Assembly: GCA_903839975.1 (NCBI GenBank) | Contig: CAIMEH010000031.1 | Span: forward strand, 1 to 34,677 | Origin: an uncultured Candidatus Berkelbacteria bacterium | GTDB taxonomy: Bacteria > Patescibacteriota > UBA1384 > 2-12-FULL-50-11 | Length of the DNA stretch: 34,677 nucleotides | Direction of reading: 5' to 3' | Part shown: one piece after another, positions 12,478 to 24,442 of the stretch | How positions within the stretch are numbered: position 1 is the stretch's first letter | Layout of the letters: the number at the start of each line of letters is the position of its first letter | Made by a program: the position numbers and the translations under genes | Notes under the pieces: generated by a model | Database searches by the model: none | Seen by the model: the letters and a program-made list of their open reading frames with translations, nothing else | Told to the model about the DNA's origin: nothing

Positions 12478-12549
12478 CCAAAATATCCAAGCTTGCGAGC
12501 AAAAATCTCGTGACAATTGGGGTTAATTGTGGCATGGTCAAAAACGAAG

Positions 12550-14091
12550 ATGAGTTCACTCTACCGCAAGTACCGTCCAGCCAATTTTACAGAGGTAATT
12601 GGCCAGGATCATATCAGTGAAAATATCAAAAATTCTTTGAAGAAAGGCACGGTCGGTCATGCCTATTTATTCTCTGGGCCGCGTGGAACAGGTAAAACAA
12701 CACTTGCTCGCTTGTTTGCTAAAGCAGTTAACTGCCAGAGCCCGATTGATGGCATCGAACCATGTGGCAAGTGCGAGATTTGTTTAGAGATGGCTAATGG
12801 CAGCTTAGTAGATATTATCGAGATTGATGCCGCTTCCAACCGAGGCATTGACGAGATTCGCGAGCTACGTGAACGCGTGGCTTATGCACCAAGTCGAGGA
12901 AAATACAAAGTTTATATTATCGACGAGGTTCATATGTTAACCAAAGAAGCCTTTAATGCATTATTAAAAACCCTGGAAGAGCCACCGGCGCATGTAATTT
13001 TTATTCTAGCCACAACCGAGCTCCATAAGGTTCCAGATACGATTATTTCCCGTTGCCAGCGCTACCAATTTCATCGAGCGGGTGACGAATCGCTGCGCGA
13101 GTTACTCAAGAAAGTTGTTAAACAAGAAAAAATTGGTCTCGATGACGAGGCGATAGAGGTAGTTGTCGCTAGGGCAGAGGGTTCGTTCCGCGACGCTTTA
13201 ACCCTGTTAGGCAACGTTGCCAGTCAAGATAAAAAACTTGATGCCGCTATGCTACGAGAACTGTTGGGAATGCCGGAAACGGCCACAATTGAGATTGTTC
13301 GCGCGTCATTAACAGGCAAGGATTCAGACAAACTTATGGCCACTCTGCGTGAATTTATTAACGGTGGTGGCGATATAATTGTTCTGGTAAAAACTTTAAC
13401 AGACCTTTTAAAGAAAGAGATATTGGATGGTAGCTCCAAGCAGCCATACGTCATATATGACGTATGGCTGCTTGAGCAGCTGCTTGTTGTTCTAGCACGT
13501 GTTCGTGGTTCGGCCGATCCGACAGCGTTACTACTAGCAAAGCTCTACGAGTTGGCTTCCATCGGCCAAACACCTCAACCGACTGAGGTGTTTAAGACCA
13601 TACCTGTAGTTGAACAGGCTAAGCTTTCTGCTCAAGAAGTAGTAAGGGCAGTACCCGTAGTAGAGCAAGTTCCAGAGCCACCAACAGTATCAGACATACA
13701 AAAGCCCGCCGAGATTAAAATTGAAGAAGCTCCGGTTGCTGTCGACGCTGTTTCACACCCAGTAAAATCGGAAGGTTCTGATGAATTCTGGAATTCGTTC
13801 TTGGTTGAAATTAAAGAAGTGAACCACGCAATCTATGCCGTTTTGCGCTCGGCCGAGCTGGAAAGCTTACTTGAAGACAAGATGATTACGGCCGTTAAAT
13901 TCCGTTTTTACTCGGAAAGACTTTACGAGCCAAAAAATCGTAAACAAATAGAAACAGCGGCCAGCAAGGTTGCTGGCCGAGCGATAAGTCTAGAGTGTCA
14001 CGTCCGAACCGACGTGAAGCTTTCACCCGAGGTGAAAGCCGAAGAAGATCTCGTAGGCGCAGTCGTCGACGTTTTTGAGATTGAGGGTTGA
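12550..14091 (+). CDS. dnaX: DNA polymerase III clamp-loader subunit tau/gamma
   Basis: DnaX is the AAA+ ATPase that loads the sliding clamp. I chose the ATG at 12550 (MSSLYRKYRPANF, the family N-terminus) rather than the TTG at 12517. Motifs: Walker A GPRGTGKTT (43-51), zinc cysteines CQSP...CGKCEIC, Walker B IIDEVHML, sensor 1 ATTE, and the arginine finger SRCQRYQF. Domain III, a Pro/Val-rich linker and a C-terminal domain (DEFWNSFLVEIKE...) follow, giving about 513 residues, a full tau-like form. The 3' half contains several perfect inverted repeats, including a 38-bp palindrome at 13437-13474, and a T TTA AAG heptamer at 13407-13413. A short form of about 294 residues by -1 frameshift is possible but unproven. 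Confidence 0.96.
   Translation: MSSLYRKYRPANFTEVIGQDHISENIKNSLKKGTVGHAYLFSGPRGTGKTTLARLFAKAVNCQSPIDGIEPCGKCEICLEMANGSLVDIIEIDAASNRGIDEIRELRERVAYAPSRGKYKVYIIDEVHMLTKEAFNALLKTLEEPPAHVIFILATTELHKVPDTIISRCQRYQFHRAGDESLRELLKKVVKQEKIGLDDEAIEVVVARAEGSFRDALTLLGNVASQDKKLDAAMLRELLGMPETATIEIVRASLTGKDSDKLMATLREFINGGGDIIVLVKTLTDLLKKEILDGSSKQPYVIYDVWLLEQLLVVLARVRGSADPTALLLAKLYELASIGQTPQPTEVFKTIPVVEQAKLSAQEVVRAVPVVEQVPEPPTVSDIQKPAEIKIEEAPVAVDAVSHPVKSEGSDEFWNSFLVEIKEVNHAIYAVLRSAELESLLEDKMITAVKFRFYSERLYEPKNRKQIETAASKVAGRAISLECHVRTDVKLSPEVKAEEDLVGAVVDVFEIEG
13437..13474. repeat. 38-bp perfect palindrome inside dnaX
   Basis: The half-site CAAGCAGCCATACGTCATA is followed directly by its reverse complement with no spacer. 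It encodes roughly residues 296-308 of DnaX (KQPYVIYDVWLL). It lies 4 bases after a TAG in the -1 frame. In RNA it would form a very stable hairpin. Confidence 0.9.
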
Positions 14092-14094
14092 GTA

Positions 14095-14229
14095 GAGTCC
14101 CGAGAAATATCCTTTCGCAACCGGCCTCTCGCTCCTGCGGCTCAAGGCCTAATTCCGGTTATTTTCCCGCATGGCGGGGCCAAGCAAAATAACCTTCATA
14201 CGTTGCTGCAAGGATATTTCTCGGGACTC
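14095..14229. repeat. 135-bp inverted-repeat element between dnaX and dnaB
   Basis: The ends are perfect 20-base inverted repeats (GAGTCCCGAGAAATATCCTT at 14095-14114, complement at 14210-14229). Inside are nested pairs: AACCGG/CCGGTT (14119-14124 with 14155-14160), GGTTATTTT/AAAATAACC (14157-14165 with 14186-14194, sharing bases with the previous pair), and CCCGC/GCGGG (14166-14170 with 14174-14178). It fills most of the 194-base gap, begins 4 bases after the dnaX stop and has no ORF. It could be a MITE-like insertion, an extragenic repeat or a structured RNA. No clear target-site duplication flanks it. Confidence 0.85.
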
Positions 14230-14285
14230 GTGGAAGTGAGGAGAGGTGCTTGCTTCAACAATATTAAAACGTTAATAGTGAGACT

Positions 14286-15659
14286 ATGGCCAAAAGTGAA
14301 TTACTAGGGAAAATACCGCCGCAAAATATAGAAGCCGAGGCAGCTGTACTCGGTGCAATCTTGGTAAACAAAGAGGCTATGGATAAGGTTGCCGACGCTG
14401 TTGGCGATAAAGATTTTTACCGCTCTGATCACCAGATAATTTTCCGAGCCATTCTGCGACTCTACGACAAACGAGCGCCAATCGACTTAGTAACGCTCAC
14501 CAACGAGCTAGACGGTTTAAAACAGCTTGATCACGTTGGTGGGGCGGCCTATTTAGCAACTTTAGTTAACTCGGTGCCAACGGCCATTCACGTTACTCAT
14601 TATGCCGAGATTGTTAGGCAGAAAGCGGTGTTGCGCCGAATTTTGGCGGCCGGCCAAAAAATATCCCAACTTGGCTACGAAGAGGACAGGGAAGTTCAGC
14701 AGATTCTGGATGAAGCTGAAAAGGCAGTTTTTGAGGTCTCTCATGAATTGGTTAAAGACAACTTTATGCCAATCTCCGACATTCTGGCCACTAGCTTTGA
14801 TAGAATTGACCGTCTACACCGAGAAAAAGGTTTGCTTCGCGGTGTTACTACTGGCTTCAAACAGTTAGATAATCAACTGTCAGGTTTCCAAAATTCAGAC
14901 TTAATTATTTTGGCCGCCCGCCCTTCGATGGGAAAAACTACTTTTGCCTTGAATCTGGCCCTTAATGCTGCCACCAAAGGTAAGGTTCCGACCGGTTTCT
15001 TCTCGCTAGAGATGAGCAAAGAGCAGGTGGTGGATAAGCTTATCTGTGCCCAAGCGATGGTTGACGGTTGGAAGCTTCGCACCGGTAACCTGAGCGAGGA
15101 TGATTTTCCGGCCATCGGTATGGCGATGGGAACTCTGGCCGAGGCCCCGATATTTATCGACGATTCACCAGGTTTGACGATTTTAGAGATTCGTACTCGT
15201 GCTCGTCGCCTAAAAGCCGAACATAACTTGGGGCTAATGGTTGTAGATTATCTGCAGTTAATCGACGGTGGTTCTGGCGCTAATGCCGACAACCGTGTTC
15301 AACAGGTTTCTGAGATCTCTCGTAACTTGAAGGGTATCGCTCGTGAGCTGGATATACCTGTTATTGCCCTGTCACAGCTTTCTCGTAACGTGGAAAATCG
15401 CGATAAGAAAACGCCGCAGCTTTCCGATTTGCGCGAATCTGGTTCTATCGAGCAAGACGCTGATATTGTTATGTTCCTATTTCGAGAGGACTACTACGAC
15501 CGTGAAACAGAACGCAAAAATATTACTGATCTACTGATTAGAAAGCACCGTAACGGCCCGATAGGCGAGGTAGAGCTTCACTTCCGCCCAGAACAGAGCC
15601 GCTTCTTCGACATTGAGCGAAAAGCCAAACCAGCGTCCAAGGTTTCTCATGAGGAGTAG
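14286..15659 (+). CDS. dnaB: Replicative DNA helicase
   Basis: DnaB is the hexameric helicase that unwinds DNA ahead of the replisome. At 457 residues it has the normal length. The N-terminal domain (PPQNIEAEAAVLGAILVNKEA...) is followed by the RecA-like core: Walker A ARPSMGKTTFALN, FFSLEMSKEQ, Walker B LMVVDYLQLI, IPVIALSQLSRNVE, and the arginine finger region LRESGSIEQDADIVMFL. No intein is present. The ATG at 14286 has no Shine-Dalgarno. It follows dnaX after the inverted-repeat element, so two replisome genes are neighbours. The frame ends in a short Lys/Ala tail typical of the family. Confidence 0.97.
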   Translation: MAKSELLGKIPPQNIEAEAAVLGAILVNKEAMDKVADAVGDKDFYRSDHQIIFRAILRLYDKRAPIDLVTLTNELDGLKQLDHVGGAAYLATLVNSVPTAIHVTHYAEIVRQKAVLRRILAAGQKISQLGYEEDREVQQILDEAEKAVFEVSHELVKDNFMPISDILATSFDRIDRLHREKGLLRGVTTGFKQLDNQLSGFQNSDLIILAARPSMGKTTFALNLALNAATKGKVPTGFFSLEMSKEQVVDKLICAQAMVDGWKLRTGNLSEDDFPAIGMAMGTLAEAPIFIDDSPGLTILEIRTRARRLKAEHNLGLMVVDYLQLIDGGSGANADNRVQQVSEISRNLKGIARELDIPVIALSQLSRNVENRDKKTPQLSDLRESGSIEQDADIVMFLFREDYYDRETERKNITDLLIRKHRNGPIGEVELHFRPEQSRFFDIERKAKPASKVSHEE

Positions 15660-21317: not shown

Positions 21318-22121
21318 ATGAATCCGAGCGACATTCTCAAAAATATTAATACCCTCCCAAAAAAGTGGTTCGGCCAGAATTTTTTGCATAACGATGCAAT
21401 TTTGGACGAAATTGTTGCCGCCGGTGAGATTAAGGACGATGAGACCGTTGTCGAGATTGGTCCAGGCTTGGGCGCCTTAACGGAAAGGCTTCTTAGAGTG
21501 GCTGGTAAGGTAATTGCCATTGAGGCCGATCGCGAGCTTGCCGACTACCTTCGTGGCCGAAGATTACCTCGTTTTACTCTTATAACTGGCGATGCTTTGC
21601 ATATCGACTGGACCATAGACATCCCCGGCAAATACAAGATTGTGGCCAATATTCCTTATTCAATTACCTCGCCACTTTTGCGCAAAATTTATCATTTAGA
21701 GAAGAAACCAGAGAGAGTTGTTTTATTAGTGCAGAAAGAAGTGGCAGAGCGCTTAACGGCCGAGGCTGGCGATAATAGTCGCGGCTTTCTAACACTTTTA
21801 ACCGAGGCTAACGCCAACGTAAAAATACTGCGCCATGTTAAACCTGGTAACTTTTTTCCAGCTCCGAAAGTAGATTCTTCTGTTATTATCCTTGAGCTAA
21901 AAGAAACCCGCGAAGAACAAATATTTTGGCCGGCGGTTGAAGCGGCTTTTTCCCATAAGCGTCAGACTCTAGTAAACGGTCTAAAAATTATGCCAATCTC
22001 CCGAAATATTCTTAATGTTATTCTGGAGGACATGAAATTATCGCCAATGGTTCGCCCGGCAGAACTAACATTTGAGGAGTGGATGGTATTATCTAAGCGT
22101 ATCAAGGAGCAGGTAGAGTAA
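21318..22121 (+). CDS. rsmA: 16S rRNA dimethyladenosine transferase
   Basis: RsmA (KsgA) dimethylates two adjacent adenosines in helix 45 of 16S rRNA, using S-adenosylmethionine. The 267-residue protein has KKWFGQNFLHN, the SAM-binding EIGPGLGALTERL, EADRELADYL and the catalytic NIPYSITSPLL. FPAPKVDSSVIIL is also conserved. The length is normal. The next gene, rsmI, begins in the last base of the stop codon (TAATG), so two methyltransferases for 16S rRNA are translationally coupled. No Shine-Dalgarno is present; the start fits a leaderless mRNA. Confidence 0.96.
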   Translation: MNPSDILKNINTLPKKWFGQNFLHNDAILDEIVAAGEIKDDETVVEIGPGLGALTERLLRVAGKVIAIEADRELADYLRGRRLPRFTLITGDALHIDWTIDIPGKYKIVANIPYSITSPLLRKIYHLEKKPERVVLLVQKEVAERLTAEAGDNSRGFLTLLTEANANVKILRHVKPGNFFPAPKVDSSVIILELKETREEQIFWPAVEAAFSHKRQTLVNGLKIMPISRNILNVILEDMKLSPMVRPAELTFEEWMVLSKRIKEQVE

Positions 22122-22777
22122 TGCTTTACGTTGTGGCCACCCCTATTGGAAATTTGGGCGATATTACTTTTAGGGCCGTTGAAACACTAAAAAACGTCGA
22201 CAAAATTTACTGCGAAGATACTCGCCGTACTCGAGTGCTACTCGATCATTACGATATTAAAAAGCCGTACGAAAGTTTTCATCACCACAGCTCAGACGAG
22301 AGAATCGAACAGATTGTTCGTGGTCTAAAAAATGGCGACGAGATTGCTTATGTTAGTGATGCCGGCACGCCCGGTGTCGCCGACCCAGCTGGCAAGTTAG
22401 TTGAGCGCTGCCATCAAGAGGGAATTAAAGTTTCACCGTTGCCAGGTCCGTCGGCCGTAACTTCGCTTCTGTCGGTGGCCGGTATTTATGCCAACGAGTA
22501 TACGTTCTCAGGTTACGTTCCTACCAAGAAAGGACGCCAAACATTTGTTAAAACTATGCTCAAAAGCGAGATACCAGTTGTCTTTTTTGAAACCGCCCCA
22601 CGGCTAATTAAGTTACTAGACCAGATTATGGAATTCGGTGGCGAGAACCGAAAACTTATTGTTGGCCGTGAGTTAACCAAGCAGTTTGAGCAGATAGAAG
22701 TTGGTAAACCAACCGAGCTGAAAGATAAAATTAAAGAAATTCGTGGCGAGTTCGTATTGGTCTTATCTACAGAGTAA
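22121..22777 (+). CDS. rsmI: 16S rRNA 2'-O-ribose methyltransferase RsmI
   Basis: RsmI methylates the ribose of C1402 (E. coli numbering) in 16S rRNA. The fold is that of tetrapyrrole methylases: YVVATPIGNLGDITFRAVETL, CEDTRRTRVLLDHY, VSDAGTPGVADPAGKLV, PLPGPSAVTSLLSVAG and FSGYVP. At 218 residues it is shorter than E. coli RsmI (~286) because the C-terminal extension is missing; the core is complete. It overlaps the rsmA stop by one base. A promoter-like sequence begins 10 bases after its stop and starts the candidate RNA described next. Confidence 0.95.
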   Translation: MLYVVATPIGNLGDITFRAVETLKNVDKIYCEDTRRTRVLLDHYDIKKPYESFHHHSSDERIEQIVRGLKNGDEIAYVSDAGTPGVADPAGKLVERCHQEGIKVSPLPGPSAVTSLLSVAGIYANEYTFSGYVPTKKGRQTFVKTMLKSEIPVVFFETAPRLIKLLDQIMEFGGENRKLIVGRELTKQFEQIEVGKPTELKDKIKEIRGEFVLVLSTE

Positions 22778-22786
22778 TTCCAGCTC

Positions 22787-22814
22787 TTGCGCAGCAAAGA
22801 ATTAGTACTACAAT
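22787..22814 (+). promoter_or_regulatory. Promoter of the candidate structured RNA
   Basis: TTGCGC (22787-22792), a 16-base spacer and TACAAT (22809-22814, 5 of 6). The predicted start is near 22821, directly before the first hairpin. Confidence 0.5.
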
Positions 22815-22820
22815 TATTTT

Positions 22821-22996
22821 AACTCTCAGTTGAGAGTACAATCGCGCTTCGGCGCAGGCTACGAATGTTTCGTCGTTGAAAGCCCTGTGGCTTTTGGGAC
22901 TCGTCCGTTGGGATGGTTCGTCCGGATTATCCTGGCAACAACTCGTGTAGCGAAGTGGGGAGACAGCGCTTACAAGTGTCTCCCCCTAATTCTTTT
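22821..22996 (+). ncRNA. Candidate structured RNA or leader before metG
   Basis: The 240-base gap between rsmI and metG contains a promoter, a dense set of hairpins and a terminator. Seen in order: ACTCTC/GAGAGT with an AGTT loop; GCGC-TTCG-GCGC with a UUCG tetraloop; a closing stem GCTAC (22858) with GTAGC (22947); GTTG (22875) with CAAC (22936); and inside it AAAGCC-CTGT-GGCTTT and further GGAC/GTCC, GGAT/ATCC pairings. A final stem, GGGGAGACA/TGTCTCCCC, precedes a T-rich tail. I cannot match it to T-box, SAM riboswitch, SRP RNA, RNase P, tmRNA or 6S consensus. It may be a free RNA or an attenuator acting on metG. The ORF at 22830-23057 is a shadow. Confidence 0.5.
22957..22996 (+). terminator. 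Terminator upstream of metG
   Basis: GGGGAGACA (22957-22965) pairs with TGTCTCCCC (22977-22985), followed by CTAATTCTTTT. It ends about 30 bases before the metG start. Confidence 0.75.
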
Positions 22997-23011
22997 ACCC
23001 AGAAAAATTGC

Positions 23012-23017
23012 TAGAAT
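23012..23017 (+). promoter_or_regulatory. -10 box of metG
   Basis: TAGAAT directly abuts the ATG at 23018. With a normal -10 to start distance, transcription begins near 23024, so the second ATG at 23027 is the likely start of a leaderless mRNA. Confidence 0.5.
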
Positions 23018-23026
23018 ATGGAAACA

Positions 23027-24442
23027 ATGCAGAAGTATTACATCTCAACCTCAATAGCTTACATCAACGCCGAACCACATATCGGTTTTTTACTCGAGCT
23101 TGTCTCGGCCGATATTTTGGCTCGTTATCACCAGCAGCTTGGTGAAGAAGTTTTCTTTTTAACAGGTACGGATGAGCACGGCGCCAAAGTTGCCCAGGCC
23201 GCCGAGAAAGCTGGCCAAGAAACCCAGAAGTACGCCGACCAAGTCTCGGAGAAGTTCCGCGAGCTAACCAAAGAATATAACATTGGCATCAGCGAATTTA
23301 TTCGCACTACCGACCCAAAACACATCGAGTACGTCCAGAACGCTTGGAAAAAATTGGCGGAGAAGAAAGTTCTGGAAAAGCGTTCTTATACCGGCCATTA
23401 CTGTACCGGCTGCGAGGCCTTCAAAACCGAGCGCGAGATCGTCGACGGCAAATGCACAATTCACGAGACACCGGTTGAGAAGATCGTCGAAGAGAACTGG
23501 TTCTTGGTAATCTCGCCAGAAGTAAAAGCCAAAATTAAAGAGTGGCTACCGGCTGTATACCCAGCCCACAAGCAGAACGAAATTTTAAATATTCTTGATG
23601 AATACGATTCTATTAGCGTATCCCGACCAAAGGAAACCCTGAAATGGGGGATCGAAGTTCCGAACGACCCGGATCAGGTGATGTACGTCTGGGTTGATGC
23701 TTTATTAAACTATGTCACCGGTATTCTGGTGGCCGGCAAGAAGATCGAAGATGTCTGGCAGAATCAGACTCAGATTATCGGCAAAGATATCTTAAAATTC
23801 CACGCCATCATCTGGCCAGCATTATTAATTGCCTTAGATCTCCCTTTACCAAAACAGCTTTTGGTTCACGGTTTTGTGAACGTTGAGGGCAAGAAGATGT
23901 CCAAGAGCTTGGGCAACGTGATTACACCAACCCAATTAAGGGAACGTTACGGAGTAGATGCAACGCGCTACCTACTTTTCCGCCAGCTCAATTTTTACGA
24001 TGATAGCTCGTTCTCTTGGAGTGAATTCGACGCCATCTATAATGGCGAGCTTGCCAACGGTATTGGTAACTTAACAGCTAGGCTTATTGGGTTATTAAAT
24101 AGACTGCCAAACGGCCAAGAAAAAGTTGTTCAATATCTAAAAAGCTTAGATAGCGAACCGATAAAAAATATCTCGCCGCTCAAACAGGTTGATTACTCGG
24201 CCACATTACAACAGGTTAACGAATTGCTTAAAGAAGGCGATGGCTGGATCAGTGATCAGAAACCATGGACCTGGACCGAAGAAGACTGGTCTAAATACGA
24301 CGTTGCCAGTTTTAAGCCACTGACCAAATTATTTGAAGCCAGTGTATTGCTACACCCATTTATTCCCAATACTGTCGAATCGATTCGCGATCAACTTCAC
24401 TCCCTAAAATCCGACCCATTGTTTCCACGATTAACTAAATAG
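23027..24442 (+). CDS. metG: Methionyl-tRNA synthetase
   Basis: MetRS attaches methionine to its tRNAs. The sequence MQKYYISTSIAYINAEPHIGF carries the HIGH-type signature as HIGF. The zinc-binding insert has CTGCEAF...GKCTIHE. KKMSKSLGNVI is the KMSKS loop, and WPALLIALDLPLP with WVDALLNYVTG are family-typical. At about 471 residues it is the short form without the C-terminal dimerisation/tRNA-binding domain. The ORF track starts at 23018; I prefer the ATG at 23027 because of the -10 box. The structured region upstream ends in a terminator and might control this gene. Confidence 0.95.
   Translation: MQKYYISTSIAYINAEPHIGFLLELVSADILARYHQQLGEEVFFLTGTDEHGAKVAQAAEKAGQETQKYADQVSEKFRELTKEYNIGISEFIRTTDPKHIEYVQNAWKKLAEKKVLEKRSYTGHYCTGCEAFKTEREIVDGKCTIHETPVEKIVEENWFLVISPEVKAKIKEWLPAVYPAHKQNEILNILDEYDSISVSRPKETLKWGIEVPNDPDQVMYVWVDALLNYVTGILVAGKKIEDVWQNQTQIIGKDILKFHAIIWPALLIALDLPLPKQLLVHGFVNVEGKKMSKSLGNVITPTQLRERYGVDATRYLLFRQLNFYDDSSFSWSEFDAIYNGELANGIGNLTARLIGLLNRLPNGQEKVVQYLKSLDSEPIKNISPLKQVDYSATLQQVNELLKEGDGWISDQKPWTWTEEDWSKYDVASFKPLTKLFEASVLLHPFIPNTVESIRDQLHSLKSDPLFPRLTK

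Follow-up and report, generated by a model that had tools for sequence, protein, structure and literature searches.

In comparing the intergenic region between rsmI and metG with described systems, a close counterpart is the intrinsic (Rho-independent) terminator placed between tandem units, with which it shares a GC-rich hairpin followed by a T-rich tail after rsmI; the T-tract is here interrupted (CTAATTCTTTT), as is common in this genome. Orphan intergenic small RNAs resemble the region in having promoter-like element(s), a length of about 150-175 nt and a terminator, but for the present spacer no conservation was detected. The T-box and SAM riboswitch leaders of methionine genes have in common with it a position upstream of metG; in contrast to them, the spacer matches no such family and metG carries a predicted promoter of its own 3' of the terminator. 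The promoters of leaderless bacterial mRNAs are comparable to the predicted -10 element of metG, which precedes the start codon by 9 nt here and by 6 nt in five relatives, and the genome shows an excess of such elements at this kind of spacing; nothing in it is unusual beyond the lineage.

Signals and folding of the rsmI-metG spacer

The window, that is, the whole stretch of 34,677 nucleotides analyzed, corresponds to contig 31 in a Berkelbacteria-like Patescibacteria genome of 680 kb (G000), and the nearest named relatives of its MetG are those of Candidatus Berkelbacteria and other MAGs of the Patescibacteria group. The genes around the spacer, which are rsmA, rsmI, metG, and those encoding an EamA transporter and TatD nuclease, are all on the + strand. 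The features of the region are as follows.

21318-22121, + strand: rsmA, first gene of the rsmA-rsmI pair, with a 1-nt overlap with rsmI
22121-22777, + strand: rsmI, 16S rRNA 2'-O-methyltransferase family (Pfam TP_methylase, PF00590), second gene of the pair
22787-22814, + strand: promoter-like sequence 1, TTGCGC-16-TACAAT (TTGCGC 22787-22792; -10 TACAAT 22809-22814), matrix score 9.1
22796-22805, + strand: 5' arm of a long-range, perfect 10-bp complement, AAAGAATTAG, located within the promoter 1 spacer
22822-22837, + strand: near-perfect 16-bp palindrome ACTCTCA-GT-TGAGAGT (ACTCTCAGTTGAGAGT)
22837-22842, + strand: promoter-like sequence 2, -10 TACAAT, matrix score 9.6
22844-22855, + strand: GCGC-UUCG-GCGC hairpin GCGCUUCGGCGC, pair probability 0.97
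22858-22951, + strand: predicted three-way junction, closed by a helix (22858-22863/22946-22951) and bearing hairpins at 22872-22900 and 22907-22936
22957-22985, + strand: hairpin of intrinsic-terminator type, GGGGAGACA...TGTCTCCCC, tail CTAATTCTTTT to about 22996
22986-22995, + strand: 3' arm of the 10-bp complement, CTAATTCTTT, identical with the tail of the terminator
23012-23017, + strand: metG -10 element TAGAAT, putative leaderless promoter, matrix score 9.7
23027-24442, + strand: metG, methionyl-tRNA synthetase (Pfam tRNA-synt_1g), start from alignment to relatives, first ATG at 23018

The promoter-like sequence TTGCGC-16-TACAAT, which the original prediction of a structured RNA or attenuator had named, is indeed present, even if its -35 is weak and a consensus promoter scan missed it. 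Under a matrix derived from 46 -10 elements of this genome that sit 6-8 nt ahead of starts, its score equals the median of the genome's own promoter set, and a score this high has an expectation of 0.08 per 240 nt. A second TACAAT scores slightly higher 28 bp downstream of the first, the expectation for each of the two being below 0.1 per 240 nt. Between these -10 elements sits the palindrome at 22822-22837, of a kind for which 0.09 occurrences are expected in the window at two mismatches or fewer, and which has one exact copy in the genome; it could form a hairpin at the 5' end of the transcript or serve as an operator-like site.

The UUCG hairpin and the multibranch core were found as they had been described, the GCUAC/GUAGC closure being located within 22858-22863/22946-22951, but the energy of the core lies close to that of shuffled sequences. 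Folded at 22842-22953, it has a z of -1.4 and is equalled by 18 of 200 shuffles; with other limits the values are -1.8 (22821-22953) and -1.9 (22857-22953), so that the core is not clearly above chance. The longer span 22816-23000 reaches -3.2 because the terminator drives the value, and when the genome's same-strand gaps measuring 140-450 nt are ordered by folding z, the gap as a whole is 29th of 72. The only named piece that folds clearly above chance is the terminator hairpin (z -4.8, with none of 200 shuffles as good). Its stem is followed by seven T in CTAATTCTTTTA, a tract broken by C and A, and a strict consensus terminator scan was negative; interrupted T-tracts of this sort are usual after gene-end hairpins in this genome. 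Since the tail is interrupted, read-through into metG is possible.

A small coding gene in the gap was considered and rejected, as the ORFs of the gap cross the terminator and enter metG out of frame. A repeat or mobile element was likewise rejected, the genome holding no second copy.

The start of metG and the locus in relatives

The original prediction made no mention of the -10 element TAGAAT at 23012-23017, which ends 9 nt ahead of the metG ATG at 23027 and lies 3' of the terminator. Across the genome, -10 hexamers pile up 6, 7, and 8 nt before starts, in 21, 17, and 8 genes (46), versus ~3 to 4 per position elsewhere, counts that derive from crude gene calls (longest ORFs), so that the true peak may be sharper. 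Leaderless promoters thus appear to be common across this genome. Hexamers of this type in G000 are often preceded by GG.

Among the family genomes in which metG is complete or almost so, rsmI lies directly upstream of it in seven of seven, the window included; in G003, neither gene was found. The length of the gap is 249 nt in the window, 158 in G002, 152 in G001 and 82 in G006, which belong to one genus, 152 in G004 and 19 in G007, which belong to another, and 19 in G005. Because the gap differs within both genera, the spacer has been gained, lost, or rewritten within them. None of the relatives, when paired with the window, has a spacer similarity above that of dinucleotide shuffles, the fold is likewise not retained in any of them, and the gap of G004, considered as a homologue, was discarded after an alignment without real similarity. 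What recurs is the GC-rich hairpin that ends each of the five long gaps (the window, G001, G002, G004, and G006), and a good -10 hexamer that precedes the metG start by exactly 6 nt in five of the seven genomes (G001, G004, G005, G006, and G007), with a weaker match in G002. The conserved feature is therefore the start point of metG, 3' of the terminator. The 19-nt gaps of G005 and G007 leave no room for any leader.

The Rfam search proposed as a check of the original prediction found no family match at the locus: at gathering as well as permissive thresholds there was no credible match, and none that was meaningful up to E 10. For T-box, SAM riboswitch, SRP RNA, and tmRNA, whose motifs the original prediction had also missed in the sequence, the locus gives no Rfam match. 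BLASTN of the spacer against 61 related genomes and phages, and a single-sequence covariance model (R1) run on 55 genomes, on 35 metG loci, and with its filters off on six syntenic loci, recovered the window itself alone, in sets of genomes where its genus is represented by one species. The only other R1 hits were short look-alikes scoring 4-12 bits. Exact pattern scans of IMG/VR viral contigs gave no match.

Other structured elements and the signal recognition particle

The strongest-folding gap inside the window is that between dnaX (12517-14091) and dnaB (14286-15659), at 14092-14285, which contains an element folding as a three-way junction closed by a long stem (14094-14230, - strand as modelled). 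BLASTN found a second copy elsewhere in G000 (C33:5327-5457), with 80% identity over 109 nt. The model of the element also matches G003 (two copies), G005, and G038, and weakly G019, at unrelated loci. Covariation among the copies is strong: in an alignment of eight rows that was fitted to the model, one row being the window copy read on its other strand, 27 of 36 pairs are changed on both sides, 94% of cells are paired, and none of 500 shuffles is as good. The element has no Rfam match and probably represents a dispersed structured RNA not described before, or else a palindromic mobile element. Its signal is much stronger than that of the rsmI-metG spacer, even if the homologue yields are not exactly comparable, this model having been built from two sequences and R1 from one. 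The possibility that the spacer is a degenerate copy of this element was rejected, for the spacer does not match it. The strongest fold among all gaps tested belongs to another intergenic region, G000:C3:17438-17642 (- strand; z -9.3), with several near-perfect hairpins in a row.

A separate observation concerns the signal recognition particle, which seems to be missing in G000, its class, and its phylum. SRP RNA (RF00169, RF01854) was not found over cut-off in 55 genomes of the class; the Ffh M domain (PF02978) was found in one of 55 class genomes and in none of 192 phylum genomes, and the SRP54 GTPase (PF00448) over cut-off in none of 21 genomes, with both domains detected in 14 of 14 controls. 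No statement of such a loss in the class or phylum was found in the literature searched. The tmRNA gene of the genome lies at G000:C5:12441-12992, and its predicted tag is rather long (ANAFSKAKASVANLFAAPVFAPAFA).

Explanations of the spacer

How, then, did this region come to look like a structured RNA ahead of metG? The explanation that we favor, with moderate confidence, is that it comprises the terminator region of rsmA-rsmI and a lineage-specific spacer, with metG restarted from its own promoter and the spacer probably giving a short non-coding transcript. Transcription of rsmA-rsmI would stop at the intrinsic-type hairpin (22957-22996), and metG would begin afresh from the TAGAAT promoter at about 23023-23027, producing an mRNA with no leader or almost none. 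The spacer would probably have its own promoter (TACAAT 22809 and/or 22837), from which a non-coding transcript of ~150-175 nt may run to the terminator. To this extent the earlier suggestion of another RNA of ~175 nt survives: the promoter-like signal(s) and the terminator make a short non-coding unit plausible, but no homologue was found in the genomes searched and the core is unremarkable for this genome. The weak -35 of promoter 1, the interrupted terminator tail, and the 10-bp complement, which it leaves unexplained, all count against the favored explanation.

It is possible, if on the unlikely side, that the gap is nothing but the 3' end of rsmI, a terminator, and the metG promoter, its upstream hexamers and hairpins being due to chance and yielding no discrete small RNA. 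The core fold close to shuffles, the rank of the gap (29th of 72), the two relatives that manage without a spacer, and the unrelated spacers even inside one genus are consistent with such a view; two genome-typical promoter-like elements within 30 nt, versus ~0.08 expected per 240 nt, and the palindrome with 0.09 expected occurrences argue against it. More doubtful is a genus-restricted, independently transcribed structured RNA between rsmI and metG, which might be under the operator-like palindrome at 22822-22837 between tandem promoters. We consider improbable a genuine structured RNA that is very young or of very narrow distribution, acting in trans as a small RNA and possibly closed by the 10-bp helix. 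This helix (22796-22805/22986-22995), which the original prediction did not mention, is rarer than expected by chance, being seen in three of 300 shuffles and in only two of 52 gaps of this size; it forms when the RNA is lengthened by ~30 nt at its 5' end, and the fold of 22793-22998 has a z of -4.8. Yet the spacer of promoter 1 contains its 5' arm, so that the helix is incompatible with the transcript of that promoter and the arm is absent from the transcript of either one; moreover, the alternative fold displaces the core initially proposed, which refolds, so that the structure is not well determined, and neither BLASTN (61 genomes), R1 (55 genomes), nor the syntenic loci provided a homologue.

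A cis-acting leader or attenuator of metG sensing methionine or tRNA supply, as the original prediction had offered, is suggested by the position of the spacer ahead of metG and by a terminator directly upstream of the gene. It is nonetheless very improbable: a good -10 lies between terminator and gene, five relatives have the same layout, two have gaps of 19 nt, and at neither threshold did Rfam give a match to T-box, SAM, or any other family. With the -10 of metG placed 3' of the terminator and kept in relatives, the spacer element is very probably not a leader or attenuator of metG; a methionine-sensing leader is unlikely, while read-through from upstream may still occur. Hardly credible is a diverged housekeeping RNA (6S, SRP RNA, or tmRNA), for which one may cite a length near that of 6S and the failure to find SRP RNA and 6S over cut-off elsewhere in the genome. 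The 6S-like RNA formerly envisaged has no RF00013 match at the locus, where the fold has another shape than a long rod with a central bubble; Rfam gave nothing meaningful up to E 10, and relatives do not conserve the sequence. For SRP RNA there is no RF00169 or RF01854 match and Ffh was not found in the genome; with the Ffh M domain and over-cut-off SRP54 GTPase both missing, no SRP RNA is expected. The tmRNA gene lies on another contig.

The analysis thus establishes a terminator-type hairpin, a metG -10 element together with its conservation, and the absence of a detectable homologue of the spacer, for which no conserved function is indicated. The locus is an ordinary intergenic architecture, with an orphan small RNA as a weak possibility. 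Of little significance by itself, the case shows that a gap which looks convincingly structured may turn out to be a terminator plus a fast-changing spacer, and that leader hypotheses need a check of the real start of the downstream gene. For these uncultured bacteria, the widespread leaderless promoters would make regulation by 5' leaders unlikely for many genes.
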